Shown here in pieces: positions 8,149 through 34,834 of a stretch of DNA of 34,834 nucleotides. Within the stretch, counting starts at the first letter, position 1, and every line of letters starts with the position of its first letter. Made by a program: the position numbers and the translations under genes. The stretch spans positions 1 to 34,834 of the IMG/VR virus record IMGVR_UViG_3300045044_000038. One strand, written 5' to 3'. The stretch is from a virus. The notes under the pieces were generated by a model. The model was given only the letters and a program-made list of their open reading frames with translations. It did no database searches and was not told where the DNA came from.

Positions 8149-9129
8149 TTAGGAGAACGAGGAATTAGAGCGAACCAGCATGTACCAGGTCGCGTCAATA
8201 ACGCCGCAGTTCCAGTACGCTTTCGCGCCGGCCGTGACGTATTGGTTGAGCGGGTCACTCTTATCCGGGGTATCAACGATAATCACTTTGGGTGATAATT
8301 CGCTGGAACCGGCCGAGCTGCCTTTGAGTTGCGGAACAGCATACGCCTGGTCGCCGCAGACTACGCTCGTATATACCGAGCCGCCTGAGCTGTACGTGCC
8401 TTCTGAGGATTCAATCCACGGATGAGTTGTGCGGACGGCTTTAACGCCGAACCAGCTACCAATCTCGCCCTTGAACATCCCGTCTTTCGTTCCGTACTCG
8501 GACGTAACGACGAACTTGGGATCTCTCATCAGATCGTACTCAACCGCTGGCGCAACTGCCATGAAGTAGGCGCCGTTGATGGTCGGAGCGCGGTTGTTGC
8601 GAAGTTTGGTGCAAGCACCCAGAACGTCATCAAACGACAGGTAGCTTGAGGAGAGCGCGCCAAAGTTGGCTGCTCCACTCGCATAGCGTTTGTTGCCGCT
8701 TACGCCACCTGCTACGAGGCGAGTAAGGATGATGTGTTCAAAGTGCAACGCCAAGTCCTCGCCCATAACCTTGACTGAGGCTTTGAGCTGCTCGAACAAG
8801 TCGGTTGCTTTCAGCACGTCACTGATCTTGCTCTTGATACCGTATTGGTTGAGCGTTACGTCAGTAAACGTGAACGTGTAATCGCGGAAGTTAGTCGTCG
8901 GCACACCTTCACCCGCTGATGTTAAGTCTTCTACTTGAGTGTAGTCGGCCACATCGGGCTTGGTGAATCGGATCTGTTTACTGCCTTGGTTCGCGGGGAA
9001 CGCGACCTTATAGGCAGGTTGATCCATTACCGTCAACTGTTCCGCATGTTTCAGAAGTTGCCTTGAAAAGTACTTCTGATATTGCCCGGATAAACCGGAC
9101 GATGCAGTACTAAGTAATGTATTAGCCAT
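8149..9129 (-). CDS. Major capsid protein, N4-gp56 family
   Basis: The 326-residue protein matches the N4-gp56 capsid family in order and length: an N-terminal helix (YQKYFSRQLLKHAEQ), a strand region (KQIRFTKPDVADYTQVEDLT), an EGVPTTNF loop, the long spine helix around residues 95-140 and the P/A-domain motif GEIGSWFGVKAVRTTHPWIE (221-240), then VYTSVVCGDQAYAVPQ (252-267). It is preceded by the scaffold gene and follows portal and terminase. It forms the icosahedral shell. Parts of it recur in swapped order in the gene at 32026-32268. Confidence 0.92.
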   Translation of the reverse strand: MANTLLSTASSGLSGQYQKYFSRQLLKHAEQLTVMDQPAYKVAFPANQGSKQIRFTKPDVADYTQVEDLTSAGEGVPTTNFRDYTFTFTDVTLNQYGIKSKISDVLKATDLFEQLKASVKVMGEDLALHFEHIILTRLVAGGVSGNKRYASGAANFGALSSSYLSFDDVLGACTKLRNNRAPTINGAYFMAVAPAVEYDLMRDPKFVVTSEYGTKDGMFKGEIGSWFGVKAVRTTHPWIESSEGTYSSGGSVYTSVVCGDQAYAVPQLKGSSAGSSELSPKVIIVDTPDKSDPLNQYVTAGAKAYWNCGVIDATWYMLVRSNSSFS

Positions 9130-25270: not shown

Positions 25271-25885
25271 ATGCCGCACCGTATCACAGGCTATCATTTT
25301 ACCGGCGACACGCTCCGGGATGGTCGTCCGATTCCCGAAGTCGGCGAATGGTTAATCCACGAAGGTGAGGTCGCTCCGTGCGAAGTCGGGCTCCATGCCA
25401 GTCCGCATCCGTTTGACGCGCTCCTATATGCGCCCGGGAATCGGTTGCACAAAGTAGTTTTACGTAAGGGCCTCAAATCTCACGGCGATCCGATAGACAA
25501 ATACGTTGGGAAAGAGCGCAAAATTATCGCCTCAATCGACGCTGAAAAACTTCTGCGCGATTTCGCTAGATGGTCTGCCCTGAAAGTCATTCACTTATGG
25601 GACGCGCCTGATGTAGTAAAGCAATTTCTCGAAACCGGTGACGAGAATTTGCGGGCTGCGGCGCGGGATGCGGCGTGGGCTGCGGCGCGGGATGCGTTGG
25701 CTGCGGATGCAGCGCGGGTTGCGGCGTGGGCTGCGGCGTGGGCTGCGGGGCGGGATGCGGCGCGGGATGCGGCGTGGGCTGCGGCGCGGGCTGCGGCGCG
25801 GGATGCGGAGTGGAATGCGGCGTTTAAGAAATTTACCAATAAAGCCCGCAAAGAATTTAAGAAACGAGTTGAAGTAGCATTTTAA
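25271..25885 (+). CDS. Phage protein with N-terminal DUF-like domain and Ala/Arg/Trp repeats
   Basis: Residues 1-125 form a domain seen in many phages: TGDTLRDGRPIPEVGEWLIH, CEVGLHASPHPFDALLYAPG and LHKVVLRKG, ending with RDFARWSALKVIHLWDAPDV. Residues 128-185 are a periodic helix of AAARDAAWAAARD type. A basic tail (KARKEFKKRVEV) closes it. This family (often a DUF with variable repeats) has no known function. The repeat region is low in complexity at DNA level and may vary between relatives. Confidence 0.6.
   Translation: MPHRITGYHFTGDTLRDGRPIPEVGEWLIHEGEVAPCEVGLHASPHPFDALLYAPGNRLHKVVLRKGLKSHGDPIDKYVGKERKIIASIDAEKLLRDFARWSALKVIHLWDAPDVVKQFLETGDENLRAAARDAAWAAARDALAADAARVAAWAAAWAAGRDAARDAAWAAARAAARDAEWNAAFKKFTNKARKEFKKRVEVAF
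25652..25825 (+). repeat. GCGGCG-rich degenerate tandem repeat coding A-A-W/R-D/A units
   Basis: Units of 12 bases such as GCGGCGTGGGCT and GCGGCGCGGGAT alternate and encode AAWA and AARD. Near-identical codon choice suggests recent DNA-level expansion. The helix it encodes places Trp or Arg regularly. Confidence 0.75.
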
Positions 25886-30428: not shown

Positions 30429-30434
30429 GAAAAA

Positions 30435-30464
30435 ATGACAACACCCGAACTGGAAGCGATAGCG
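30435..30464 (+). repeat. Gene-start repeat, copy 1 (MTTPELEAIA module)
   Basis: Thirty bases at the start of the next gene encode MTTPELEAIA. The same module begins the genes at 31726 (27 bases, one ACA codon fewer) and 31899 (30 bases, one base different). Confidence 0.85.
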
Positions 30465-30836
30465 GAGAAACTGTTGCGCGATTTGTCAGAGTGGCATGAC
30501 CGGCTTTCAATTAGCCGAGAAGATATAGCCCTCGCCGCCCTGCAAGAAGCGGTCGAGCTAGGTCGGAAAGATCAAATCGTGAGGGAAATGCCTGATGCGG
30601 AGCGAGCAATAAGATTGGAAGGCATGGTAGATCGACTGACTGAGAAAGCAGCGGAAGTCCCGCTATTGAAAGCCGACCTCGCCCGCGCCCGCGAGGATAC
30701 GAAGCGGCTGGATTGGTTGGACGAACAGCGCGGGATTATTGGAGAGCTCGATTACGATTGGAATTGGCTGCAAGTTAGCTACGACACGCTCCGCGAAGCC
30801 ATCGACGCCGCCCGCGCGCAGAAGGAGAAGGAATGA
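30435..30836 (+). CDS. 133-residue helical protein starting with the repeated module
   Basis: Starts MTTPELEAIAEKLLRDLSEW and contains a coiled-coil middle and a C-terminal EDTKRLDWLDEQRGIIGELD, then REAIDAARAQKEKE. The D-T-K/E-R-L-D-W-L-D segment with a closing REAIDAAR helix is frequent in phage proteins of unknown role. The stop overlaps a 25-residue gene (ATGA). Confidence 0.55.
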   Translation: MTTPELEAIAEKLLRDLSEWHDRLSISREDIALAALQEAVELGRKDQIVREMPDAERAIRLEGMVDRLTEKAAEVPLLKADLARAREDTKRLDWLDEQRGIIGELDYDWNWLQVSYDTLREAIDAARAQKEKE

Positions 30837-30917: not shown

Positions 30918-31517
30918 ATGACAAAATGCGGTGATGATGTAACGGTAGCATTGCCGCTTTTCCAAGCGGACTATGGCGGTTCAACTCCGACCTCACCGCT
31001 CCAACTTCGCATCTATAAAATTACTCCCGCGCTGGCAGTTAGGCTCAATGAGTTATGGCACAGTCGCTTACCGCACATTTCGGTAAACAATTTAATCGGA
31101 ACTGGGATGCATATTTGTTTCGGCGCGGAGTGCGGAAATATTTGGTATGCGGTAGGACTTTGGAGTGCGCCCATAGCTAGGCACTTGAATGACCGCTCAA
31201 CCTTGGAGTTAAGGAGATTTGCTATCTCGCCAGATGCTCCCCGTAATACCGCTTCGAGGATGCTTTCGGTGATGAAAAAACTGATCGAAAGCAGGTTGCC
31301 TCATATCAAAAAACTAATTTCCTATCAAGACAATGAAGTGCATTCAGGAGTGATCTATAAGGCATCGGGATGGACGAGGGAATCAATCAGCAGTGCATAC
31401 GATTGGAGAAAGTGTAAGCGTGGCCAAAGGAAAAACAACAGACCGCAAGCACCATCACCCAAAACAAGGTGGTCAACATTCATCGCCCGCGCCGCGATGG
31501 AGAAGGAGGGGAAGTGA
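30918..31517 (+). CDS. Mom-like GNAT-fold DNA-modification protein
   Basis: The 199-residue product has LELRRFAISPDAPRNTASRM (97-116) and SYQDNEVHSGVIYKASGW (135-152). The order L-R-R-F-A...P-K/R-N-T-A-S-R followed by S-Y-Q-D-x-x-V-H-x-G-x-I-Y-x-A-x-G-W is that of phage GNAT proteins related to Mu Mom, which makes a modified adenine in DNA and so blocks restriction. The C-terminal 40 residues are basic and may bind DNA. Modification chemistry here is inferred. It would act along with the cytosine methyltransferase. Confidence 0.7.
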   Translation: MTKCGDDVTVALPLFQADYGGSTPTSPLQLRIYKITPALAVRLNELWHSRLPHISVNNLIGTGMHICFGAECGNIWYAVGLWSAPIARHLNDRSTLELRRFAISPDAPRNTASRMLSVMKKLIESRLPHIKKLISYQDNEVHSGVIYKASGWTRESISSAYDWRKCKRGQRKNNRPQAPSPKTRWSTFIARAAMEKEGK

Positions 31518-31729
31518 TGAACGACGAAGAACCAATTAAAACTACCCCAGCATTTCGCAAAAACTCAATTTACCTCTCCAGCCAGCTTCGATCTGAAATC
31601 CAAAACGGGTTACTGGAATCCTTCGAGCAAATGCTACATCGAGCGGAGGCTGCATTACCTAAATTAAAGCGCGGCCAGAAGAAACGATTTCACTTGAAGA
31701 ACTGTTACATTGAAATCTCAAAATCATGA
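31517..31729 (+). CDS. 70-residue basic protein, unknown
   Basis: The ATG at 31517 overlaps the Mom-like stop by one base (TGATG). The product starts MNDEEPIKTTPAFRKNSIYL, then SSQLRSEIQNGLLESFEQML and a basic strand-like tail (KRGQKKRFHLKNCYIEISKS). No family is recognised. Its stop overlaps the next gene's ATG. Confidence 0.5.
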   Translation: MNDEEPIKTTPAFRKNSIYLSSQLRSEIQNGLLESFEQMLHRAEAALPKLKRGQKKRFHLKNCYIEISKS

Positions 31730-31752
31730 CACCCGAACTGGAAGCGATAGCG
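31726..31752 (+). repeat. Gene-start repeat, copy 2 (MTPELEAIA module)
   Basis: Twenty-seven bases identical to copy 1 except for the loss of one ACA codon. They form the start of the 58-residue gene here. Confidence 0.85.
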
Positions 31753-31902
31753 CAGAAGGCAGTAGAGGAGGCAGTTAGGCTGCGTGGAGCATTGATCGAA
31801 TCTAATGGGCAATTGAAACTGATTTACGAACATGGAATTAAGGCTGGATCAATCGCAATTGCCGAACAAATAGAGCGAAATTGTTACGCACTAAAACAAT
31901 GA
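31726..31902 (+). CDS. 58-residue helical protein with repeated start module
   Basis: Starts MTPELEAIAQKAVEEAVRLR and ends GIKAGSIAIAEQIERNCYAL-KQ. The ATG overlaps the previous stop (ATGA) and its own stop overlaps a mini-ORF. Apart from the repeated first nine residues, it has no similarity to the gene at 30435, except an overall helical nature. No family is recognised. Confidence 0.5.
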   Translation: MTPELEAIAQKAVEEAVRLRGALIESNGQLKLIYEHGIKAGSIAIAEQIERNCYALKQ

Positions 31903-31931
31903 CAACACCCGAACTGGAAGCGTTAGCGTGA
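31899..31931 (+). CDS. 10-codon mini-ORF, third copy of the start module
   Basis: ATG to TGA encodes MTTPELEALA only. It is the start module of 30435 with one base change, cut by a TGA after ten codons. The ATG overlaps the upstream stop and its TGA overlaps the next GTG, so it may serve as a translational relay. It could instead be a decayed gene copy. Confidence 0.4.
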   Translation: MTTPELEALA

Positions 31932-32029
31932 TCTTTGCCGGTATCGTGCTTAACTTGGTAGGTGGCTTTTGCCTGTGGGTGATTGCGTGGCTGATCCTTG
32001 GAGCCTTTGTGCTGCCCCCGCCAAGATGA
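31928..32029 (+). CDS. 33-residue membrane peptide, GTG start
   Basis: Starts at a GTG overlapping the mini-ORF stop (GTGA). The product has one membrane helix (FAGIVLNLVGGFCLWVIAWL, then ILGAFVLPPPR). Its stop overlaps the ATG of the Tat-leader gene. Very short, but the double overlap supports it. Confidence 0.45.
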   Translation: MIFAGIVLNLVGGFCLWVIAWLILGAFVLPPPR

Positions 32030-32268
32030 ATCGCCGCGCCGCGATACGAAAACTATTCGGTGCTGCGGCCGTTATTGCCATTTCGCCGCAAATCTTGGCC
32101 GAGATTGGGCAGCAGGAAGCGACCGTTGCTGCTAGTAAAATAAGTCTAGAAGAAGTTTTCTATACCGCCGTTATCCGCGGCGATCAGGCGTATAACGCAC
32201 CGATGATAGGCAGCTGGTATGGAGTCAGAATAGTCGAGGCAACGCATCCTTGGGTTGAGCAACTATGA
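32026..32268 (+). CDS. Tat-leader protein with swapped capsid-protein segments
   Basis: The 80-residue product begins MNRRAAIRKLFGAAAVIAIS, a twin-arginine (RRAAIRK) leader with a hydrophobic core and a PQILAEI end. The remainder holds FYTAVIRGDQAYNAP (45-59) directly followed by IGSWYGVRIVEATHPWVE (61-78). Both match the major capsid protein of this phage (YTSVVCGDQAYAVP at 253-266 and IGSWFGVKAVRTTHPWIE at 223-240), but in reversed order. By hand alignment 9 of 14 and 12 of 18 positions agree. The role is unknown; it may be a capsid-derived exported peptide. It starts in an ATGA overlap. Confidence 0.6.
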   Translation: MNRRAAIRKLFGAAAVIAISPQILAEIGQQEATVAASKISLEEVFYTAVIRGDQAYNAPMIGSWYGVRIVEATHPWVEQL

Positions 32269-32510
32269 TTTGCCCCGGTCGCCCTGGACGTAAATTGCGT
32301 GGCCGGCAAACGGGTAACGCCGTCATGCACGACGGGTTCCGAATCCACGAAAATCCAGACGGCTCGTGCGTGTTCGTGGAGGGAAAAAAGCTAACAGGGC
32401 GCGGCCGAGGGATTCAAGCCGTGTGGACGCAGGAGGATGAGGCGGCGCTAAATGCGTGCTGCGCTAGGCGCGGGATCGTGTTCGAGTTCCAAGGGGGAAA
32501 GTGGTACTAG
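32265..32510 (+). CDS. 81-residue protein, last early gene
   Basis: The ATG overlaps the previous stop. Starts MICPGRPGRKLRGRQTGNAV, a basic arm, then HDGFRIHENPDGSCVFVEGK and GIQAVWTQEDEAALNACCAR, ending FEFQGGKWY. No family is recognised. Its TAG (32508-32510) shares CTAG with the stop of the converging minus gene, leaving no space for a terminator. Confidence 0.5.
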   Translation: MICPGRPGRKLRGRQTGNAVMHDGFRIHENPDGSCVFVEGKKLTGRGRGIQAVWTQEDEAALNACCARRGIVFEFQGGKWY

Positions 32511-34126
32511 GGCAAGCGGTTTTTCATCGCTTCCCAAATGGATCTGGGATGGAAATATCTATCGGTTTCCTGCTTGGAATATCTAGGCTTATTCCATAGG
32601 GTCGCTTTTTCGAGCGGGCTTCCTGGGGTGTGCTCGGCTTTCTGTACGTAATTCGCCGCCTCTGGCACGACCTTACTCGCCACCAGTTTCCGGCCGTATT
32701 CCCTAAACGGTTCCTTTGACTGGCGGTATTTAGGTTCTGAAGCGTTCGTCAATGGCTCTGCCATGTCCGTGACCGTTTTCATAAACGGAATATCGTACAT
32801 CGCCATCTTACCAAGTTCTTTTTGGTCGCCTTCTCCGAGGTTGGCAAACAGATTTAGGACCATTGCCTGCGAGGTATGCTGAAACCAAGTGGGAAGGCTT
32901 TTGAGTTCCCGGCTAATTTCTCTGTGGTTGTAGTACGCGTAGGCTGCGAGCGCAAGCCCAACCGTTCCTTGGGAGAACTGCCGCATGATTGAATCGGCGG
33001 TTTCGGGACGCAGATTCTCTAGCCCTTCCGCGCCAGCTTTAATCGCCCGGAATAGCCCGTGCGGAACGCCAAGTGCATGATTCCAAACCTCTACCACCAG
33101 GTTTGAGGGAACGCGCGTTACGGGAGCAAACGTAGCTTTAAGTATTTTGCCAGCAGGACCGTAGTTGTCCAGTTGCGAAACCCAACTCGCAAAGCCATTG
33201 CTATTTTGCAGAATCGCCCTATTAGCGTCAATGGCCGCTTCGTTGGTAAGCCTGTCGATAACCGCGGGGTGAGACACGTCCTCGCCCTTTCGCATTGAGG
33301 TTTCGATGCGTTGCTCCAGCGAGCGGGTAAATTCCGCGCGCCTGATAGGAGCCTTAATCGCAGCGTGGACGCTCCCCGTTACCTTGTCGTACCAATAACG
33401 GGTGTACTTATCTTTGCTCGAAAGCTGGTCAATCTCGCTTCCGTATTTGGAAAATGATTTAGCCGAATCTATGATGCCCTTTGTGATCGCAGCCGCCTTC
33501 GCCTTAAACTCCGATTTCACAATCCCTTTCAGGCTAGGGTTACGGCCGGAAATATCGACAATCCTGCTAAGGCCGGGAAGTTTGGAATAGCCAAGGCGAG
33601 TCGCGCCATAGACGGGGGCTAAGCCTTCCCTGACCGCGGCGGCAACGCCCAACTTGCCTACAACGGCTGGGCTACTTAGCACGCCAGCGCGCAATAGGCC
33701 GGCGGTATGCGTAACCAACTTTTGCCCCGGTGACATGTTCTTGCGCTCAATATCGGCTACGTGCCGATTAAATTCTCCTTTGAGTGCGGCTAGCCTTTGG
33801 CGCATCTGGTAAAGTGCCCTGTCCACGACCGGAGCTGCTTTCTCAGCCTTAGCGAAATCTCCCCGTTCAAGCCTCGCCTTTAATCCCGCAATCTCCTGCG
33901 CGGTCCGAGTCTTATTCGCAGCCAGTCGTGCGGCGCCGGGATCACGAAATACCTTTTCGGTGTCAAAATGAATGGCTCTCGCCCCATCGTAGGTTTCCTT
34001 TAAGCTAGGTCGAATCTTGTCGCCAAATTCACGCACCATTTCCTCTGCCCAATCAGCGAAGGTTCTAGCGCCCTTAGAAAACTTCTCCGCGCCCACTGTA
34101 GCGTATTCGAGTTTACACGGGTTCAT
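32507..34126 (-). CDS. Large polyvalent-type internal virion protein, C-terminal part
   Basis: A 539-residue product from the ATG ending at 34126. Near the N-terminus VGAEKFSKGARTFADWAEEM, then VREFGDKIRPSL, is a motif widely seen in large polyvalent phage proteins that are packed inside capsids and enter the host with DNA. The middle is helix-rich, with GLLRAGVLSSPAVVGKLGV and ASWVSQLDNYGPAGKILKA segments; a membrane-like stretch occurs at QGTVGLALAAYAYYN. The end is basic and Pro-rich. The upstream gene overlaps as ATGA. It was probably derived from one longer protein. Confidence 0.65.
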   Translation of the reverse strand: MNPCKLEYATVGAEKFSKGARTFADWAEEMVREFGDKIRPSLKETYDGARAIHFDTEKVFRDPGAARLAANKTRTAQEIAGLKARLERGDFAKAEKAAPVVDRALYQMRQRLAALKGEFNRHVADIERKNMSPGQKLVTHTAGLLRAGVLSSPAVVGKLGVAAAVREGLAPVYGATRLGYSKLPGLSRIVDISGRNPSLKGIVKSEFKAKAAAITKGIIDSAKSFSKYGSEIDQLSSKDKYTRYWYDKVTGSVHAAIKAPIRRAEFTRSLEQRIETSMRKGEDVSHPAVIDRLTNEAAIDANRAILQNSNGFASWVSQLDNYGPAGKILKATFAPVTRVPSNLVVEVWNHALGVPHGLFRAIKAGAEGLENLRPETADSIMRQFSQGTVGLALAAYAYYNHREISRELKSLPTWFQHTSQAMVLNLFANLGEGDQKELGKMAMYDIPFMKTVTDMAEPLTNASEPKYRQSKEPFREYGRKLVASKVVPEAANYVQKAEHTPGSPLEKATLWNKPRYSKQETDRYFHPRSIWEAMKNRLP

Positions 34127-34834
34127 AGGCAATTGACCCCTTCCTCCGCCATCTGCCTTATACGGGTGCGAGCGGCATCTGCTTTTTCGGCCAGGAAGTC
34201 GGCCATGCTTTTGCCCTGTAACCTCGCGTCCACGGCATCGCCCCTAATCTTAATTCGCTCCATTCGCGGCCGCGCTTTCCCGGCGTTGTATTGGTTTTGC
34301 TGCCTTTCAAGAGTCTCGATCCGCTTCTGCAAATCTTGGATGTATTTGGCCTGCTTATCGGTGAGCCTTGCCCCGTCCTGTGCCGCTCTTACGGTCGCTT
34401 CCATGCGAGCTAGGCTGTAGTCCTCGTTTGCCATCATCTTGCGTGCGCTAAAACCGTGGGAGAGCTCCGTGCCTGCCTTGGCATCCGCATCCAAAATCGC
34501 CTGGTAATTGTCGCGTGCCTGTTGGAGCCGCGCCTTTGCCGCGTCGATCGCGTTGGGGTCGCCGGATTTGTCCGCCGCGTTCTTAGCGTCAACCGCATCC
34601 GAGTGCTCCATCCTAGCTTTGATCTGCTCGCGAAGTAGAATCGCGTTATCTACGCGATCTATCGCTTTAACCTTGCCGCTATTGATGTCGGCTACGAGCC
34701 GTTGCCCGGCATTGGGATCCTGCTCTAGCCTTTGCCCCGCTTCGTCCCAAGTCTGCTGCCCAAAATCTTCCGCAGCAGCTTGGCTAATCCGTTCAGGTAA
34801 CCCAGCTTCTTCGCGGGCAAGATCGGTAGCAGCG
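34123..34834 (-). CDS. Polyvalent virion protein, 5' part cut by window edge
   Basis: The frame is open from base 34834 down to a TGA at 34123 (about 236 codons seen), so the N-terminus is outside the window. It begins in the window with ATDLAREEAGLPERISQ, AAAEDFGQQTWDEAGQRLEQ and SGKVKAIDRVDNAILLREQI. It ends with a coiled coil (KQAKYIQDLQKRIETLERQQ) and RTRIRQMAEEGVNCL. This Leu/Ala/Glu-rich helical style is typical of large polyvalent proteins upstream of the FADWAEEMVREFG motif, which here starts the next frame. The pair may be one protein split by a frameshift, or two coupled genes. Confidence 0.65.
   Translation of the reverse strand, partial: AATDLAREEAGLPERISQAAAEDFGQQTWDEAGQRLEQDPNAGQRLVADINSGKVKAIDRVDNAILLREQIKARMEHSDAVDAKNAADKSGDPNAIDAAKARLQQARDNYQAILDADAKAGTELSHGFSARKMMANEDYSLARMEATVRAAQDGARLTDKQAKYIQDLQKRIETLERQQNQYNAGKARPRMERIKIRGDAVDARLQGKSMADFLAEKADAARTRIRQMAEEGVNCL

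Follow-up and report, generated by a model that had tools for sequence, protein, structure and literature searches.

An 80-residue phage mini-protein with two segments of capsid-family sequence in swapped order

The DNA analyzed here (the window) is a single virus record of 34,834 bases. Two parts of it are compared: the gene for the major capsid protein, and an open reading frame (ORF) that encodes a mini-protein of 80 amino acids and has the position and length given for it in the original prediction from the sequence. The features of these two parts are as follows.

8149 to 9129, minus strand: major capsid gene of the N4-gp56 family (profile and predicted fold)
8332 to 8373, minus strand: capsid residues 253 to 266, counterpart of block A
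8410 to 8463, minus strand: capsid residues 223 to 240, counterpart of block B
31726 to 31902, plus strand: ORF, upstream member of a chain of overlapping ORFs
31899 to 31931, plus strand: 10-codon ORF with the product MTTPELEALA, one of three copies of a gene-start cassette (the third), which overlaps the ORF on either side
31928 to 32029, plus strand: hydrophobic ORF of 33 amino acids with a GTG start, its stop codon overlapping the start codon of the mini-protein gene (ATGA)
32026 to 32268, plus strand: gene of the 80-amino-acid mini-protein with swapped capsid segments (ORF, alignment, BLASTP, shuffles)
32026 to 32100, plus strand: mini-protein residues 1 to 25, basic N terminus and hydrophobic core, signal-like, with a possible cleavage site inferred at ILA|E
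32161 to 32202, plus strand: block A, mini-protein residues 46 to 59, matching capsid residues 253 to 266 (9 of 14 identical)
32206 to 32259, plus strand: block B, mini-protein residues 61 to 78, matching capsid residues 223 to 240 (12 of 18 identical)
32265 to 32510, plus strand: ORF of 81 amino acids, its ATG overlapping the stop codon of the mini-protein gene; no family match

The capsid gene lies where it had been placed before, and we can add that it is on the minus strand. Its product matches TIGR04387 at 1.3e-46 (159 bits, with a cut-off of 60), and the best Foldseek match of its model (mean pLDDT of 78) is the phage N4 capsid 9e99, with an E value of 1.3e-15. The product is thus identified as an N4-gp56 family capsid protein both by the TIGR04387 cut-off and by the N4 capsid fold of the model. 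The secondary structure of this model has strands at residues 222 to 226, 229 to 233, 252 to 258, and 263 to 266.

The two blocks of the mini-protein stand in the reverse of their order in the capsid, as predicted, and the predicted identity of about two-thirds over 32 positions is also accurate (21 of 32 residues, or 66%); DNA identity in the two blocks is 71% and 67%. The local alignment score of the mini-protein and the capsid is 82, compared with a mean of 26 and a maximum of 42 for 1,000 shuffles, and this is the strongest match among all pairs of the 58 ORFs in the window (7e-7, with the runner-up pair at 0.001). Block B matches the capsid with a BLASTP E value of 1e-8. The segment that includes block A (residues 27 to 60) scores 50 against the phage's own capsid, a score that none of 5,000 shuffles reaches (maximum, 46; Gumbel p of 9e-5). 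Against a first capsid profile, made from 86 relatives with the own capsid left out, the mini-protein outranks 2,000 shuffles and aligns in two stretches in swapped order. A second profile, made from 65 distinct closer relatives kept from 70 capsids and also excluding the own capsid, supplies the comparison with N4-gp56 capsids that the original prediction had proposed: block B scores 19.3 bits, which is not reached by any of 4,000 shuffles, and block A scores a weak 2.7 bits, which is reached by 47 of 4,000.

Based on the profile score of block B and the score of block A against the own capsid, we assign the mini-protein partial descent from the N4-gp56 capsid family. By these sequence comparisons the descent of block B is certain. 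That of block A is well supported, but it rests mainly on the lineage of the own capsid, because the family profile is weak there and the own-capsid score is clear. No capsid match for the mini-protein was found in Pfam, PHROG, or NCBIfam, so it does not qualify as a full-length HK97-type protein, and a PDB sequence search with it gave no match. Folded alone with AlphaFold, the mini-protein gives a model with a pLDDT of 42.6, which is too poor to use.

The N terminus had been described as a twin-arginine leader. In agreement with this, there is an arginine pair at residues 3 and 4, residues 10 to 25 are uncharged when judged by eye, as an arginine pair followed by an uncharged stretch would have it, and the hydrophobic core is 10 residues long, with a mean KD value of 2.66. 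However, the Pfam TAT_signal model does not match the mini-protein even at an E value of 10, while a real leader used as a control matches at 8.2e-10, and the NCBIfam models also give no Tat match. The N terminus is therefore signal-like by composition only, and the more specific designation of a recognized Tat leader is unsupported.

The mini-protein gene belongs to a chain of overlapping ORFs that spans positions 31726 to 32510. No clear ribosome site was seen ahead of its ATG, and the overlaps within the chain support translation of the mini-protein by coupling. Nearby genes on the plus strand encode a RusA-like resolvase and a Mom-like protein, with a DnaB helicase further up, and the plus-strand genes near the mini-protein gene run opposite to the structural genes. 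The Mom-like DNA modification protein (window positions 30918 to 31517) matches PHROG 1384 with an E value of 2.4e-18. A 38-nucleotide gene-start cassette (MTTPELEAIA) is present in three copies, at 30432 to 30469, 31720 to 31757, and 31896 to 31933, which indicates that short duplications occur in this region. On the minus strand, a 541-amino-acid protein (32507 to 34132) has a short DarB-like antirestriction match over residues 20 to 59 (PHROG 10089, 1.6e-6) and a 25% identical homologue in genome G001.

The nearest relatives of this phage among the matches listed are two IMG/VR records with approximately 41 to 44% identity in capsid or portal. In IMG/VR, the alignment scan for relatives kept 80 of 477, the portal scan kept 80 of 123, and a single-protein capsid scan gave no match. 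The host may belong to the Verrucomicrobiota, since one capsid relative sits in a Verrucomicrobiia MAG, although this is a weak inference. In G001, the first of the two nearest relatives, homologues of the genes that flank the small-gene region are ~0.5 to 0.8 kb apart, without a mini-protein gene between them.

A search for the same permuted arrangement in related phages had been suggested, and none was found in phages, plasmids, IMG/VR, or 387 Verrucomicrobiota genomes. A tblastn search of phages with the mini-protein returned just four Listeria phage records at E values of 3 to 4, which is chance level; the plasmid search and the IMG/VR scan returned no second mini-protein; and the Verrucomicrobiota genomes, searched without a positive control, gave no match at an E value of 0.01. 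The three matches in 48 capsid-bearing viral records all lie within capsid genes, and so do all matches in the loci of relatives (43 matches from a set of 84 loci, and 6 from a set of 90 loci that counts the L090 to L092 places twice). Scanning with a block B pattern gave 0 matches. Both matches to a block A pattern fall in a long protein that is unrelated and was met at two loci, and the two matches to a swapped-order pattern are both chance ORFs.

Among 149 capsids, the own capsid included, the own capsid is the nearest to the mini-protein (score of 132, with the next at 101). The two have five rare residues in common (T254, Q261, W226, H236, and W238 in capsid numbering), and a tree of the 32 aligned columns pairs them with a support of 0.80. 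The 11 sites at which they differ have a mixed pattern. At R68 and E71, the mini-protein has the common family residue and the capsid has changed, whereas at A48, R51, N57, A58, and A72 it is the mini-protein that departs from the common family residue. Therefore, both lines have changed, and the mini-protein, which keeps family residues lost in the capsid and also has changes of its own, is a sister of the capsid segments rather than a fresh copy of them.

In the two blocks, 9 of 19 informative codons are identical between mini-protein and capsid, compared with 6.7 expected at saturation, which places synonymous sites near saturation. The NG86 method gives a dN of 0.25 and a dS of 1.58, although dS is very noisy for 32 codons. 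In a neutral simulation with 0.4 substitutions per site on the mini-protein branch, 11 or fewer of the 32 residues changed in 2% of runs; this is a rough guide, as the simulation started from the present mini-protein codons, treated all base changes as equal, and ran for a time that was assumed. With 21 of 32 residues kept and synonymous sites near saturation, long neutral decay is unlikely. What remains is that the segments were captured recently from the capsid of a sister phage or that selection has kept them.

The reading that we favor, by a modest measure, is that the mini-protein gene is young and translationally coupled and arose when capsid-coding DNA in this lineage was joined head to tail at one point. 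A capsid stretch of approximately residues 222 to 267 would have undergone a head-to-tail doubling, or its end would have been linked to its start in some other way, and one new joint, from capsid residue 266 to residue 223, would then give the order of end piece followed by start piece. The joined product would have been trimmed at both ends and placed behind a short basic-hydrophobic start in an early small-gene operon, where the mini-protein would be translated by coupling to its upstream neighbor and its start would probably direct it to the membrane or anchor it there. The capsid segments may have been taken recently from the capsid gene of a sister phage, or selection may have preserved them from the time the joint was formed, and both possibilities fit the data equally. 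We infer the head-to-tail joint from segment order alone, no intermediate having been seen, and two independent captures would also suit the two-block arrangement. In its present state, the mini-protein is likeliest a little-tested novelty with no capsid-subunit role.

Both blocks come from the N4-gp56 capsid family (TIGR04387; PHROG 1357), but a protein that has 32 of the ~326 capsid residues, in swapped order and behind a signal-like N terminus, cannot act as a subunit of the capsid. There is also a likeness to genes born by fragment duplication and fusion, such as deletion-born fusions (PMC12803068), in which a new small gene is likewise made from the pieces of an old one; the mini-protein gene differs in that it derives from the capsid lineage of the phage itself and in that its pieces were joined in reverse order. 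The origins of orphan small phage genes are rarely traceable, and in this case the parent gene can still be seen in the genome that carries the new one, with the joint recorded in the order of the segments. Truncated Gag restriction factors (Ty1 p22 and Fv1) are pieces of a shell protein turned against their own kind; unlike the mini-protein, for which interference would be conjecture, they keep the order and most of a domain. We know of no described case of a phage capsid look-alike of this kind from a limited search of open-licence PMC.

An alternative that we consider unlikely, although it is the strongest of the rivals, is that the mini-protein is a selected mimic that imitates part of the capsid, either binding a capsid-sensing host defense or disturbing the way in which a rival phage or a satellite assembles its heads. 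The roles put forward in the original prediction (assembly decoy, export of a capsid-like epitope, interference with superinfection or with satellites) are likewise conjectural. The retention of residues while synonymous sites approach saturation, with long neutral decay unlikely, is what such selection would produce, but a recent transfer from a sister capsid yields the same codon pattern. Capsid proteins are reported to trigger host defenses in CmdTAC (PMC11618068) and staphylococcal Thoeris (PMC11312562), CapRel is a capsid-sensing defense (PMC9712102), and Tab is a phage-encoded block of virion assembly. The capsid-sensing defenses offer a reason for a phage to make a capsid look-alike. 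However, none of them is linked to this phage, and the connection is speculation; in addition, the mini-protein has no defense-family match, and its signal-like N terminus would draw it away from cytoplasmic capsids. More doubtful still is the fuller proposal that a piece of the phage's own capsid, with its two neighboring strand pairs rejoined in reverse, is now an early membrane-directed mini-protein kept by selection for capsid imitation, whether to lure away a capsid-sensing defense, to hold back the head assembly of a rival, or for some similar use. If selection does keep the mini-protein, the phage would be making a look-alike of a capsid, and this could be tested directly against capsid-sensing defenses.

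It is improbable that the leader represents an earlier, decayed copy of block B, in which case the gene would be a tandem duplicate that still shows its first copy (order B', A, B). BLASTP does join mini-protein residues 4 to 61 to capsid residues 220 to 268, and leader residues 4 to 25 score 22 at capsid residue 220, the position at which they match the capsid best (free-register shuffle p of 0.0018). None of 26 real Tat leaders (those usable by our filter from 28 loci) reaches 22 at this place, where their maximum is 12. But the place was picked after being seen, and real leaders score just as high at other capsid positions (mean, 20.7). Residues 1 to 26 give nothing against a profile of the downstream region (capsid residues 241 to 272; 635 of 4,000 shuffles reach the score), and nothing about the leader region stands out when it is compared with the entire capsid (p of 0.343), on which ground we set this candidate aside.

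Slightly less probable again is that the pieces are in normal order, the whole mini-protein being a decayed copy of capsid residues ~178 to 240 and its "leader" the capsid strand that precedes block B. The original prediction had itself named a normal, unpermuted capsid fragment as the finding that would count against it, and when looked for, this was not borne out. When the capsid is compared by tblastn with the masked window, capsid residues 170 to 239 are joined in normal order to positions 32005 to 32256 (9e-5), the alignments of several relatives start at mini-protein residues 12 to 21, and leader residues 1 to 26 score against a profile of the upstream capsid region at a level reached by 96 of 4,000 shuffles. 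It is block B, however, that carries the joined alignments. Residues 1 to 45 compared with the upstream region of the own capsid give a p of 0.198, which becomes 0.325 once in-frame upstream codons are added (166 of 4,000 shuffles against the upstream profile), and residues 27 to 60 give nothing against that profile (1,841 of 4,000). We regard normal order as largely refuted and keep the simple reading of the sequence, in which a single joint would have set the later capsid piece ahead of the earlier one, as in a head-to-tail doubling.

Chance similarity or an assembly artefact is very improbable, for although strings like GSW..V...HPW do arise by chance (a match in a Verrucomicrobiota genome, E value of 0.29, reads GSWYGVRRIFRCHPW, which we take to be a YidD-type motif), here two blocks match one and the same protein past shuffle and profile controls, and a chimeric contig would hardly yield diverged, swapped, in-frame segments.

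Two further observations concern other parts of the window and the capsids of relatives. Twelve-base repeats, with 13 overlapping copies listed, occur at 25630 to 25834, within the ORF at 25271 to 25885. Among the 65 relative capsids, 6 (L011, L012, L134, L135, L140, and L162) have an in-frame hydrophobic N-terminal extension with an MK start before the usual start, and these are possibly a clade with a leader or membrane anchor. By the ATG rule that we used, the remaining 59 have at most 19 residues before the usual start, and in one of them, L100, a comparable hydrophobic stretch is open but lacks an ATG.
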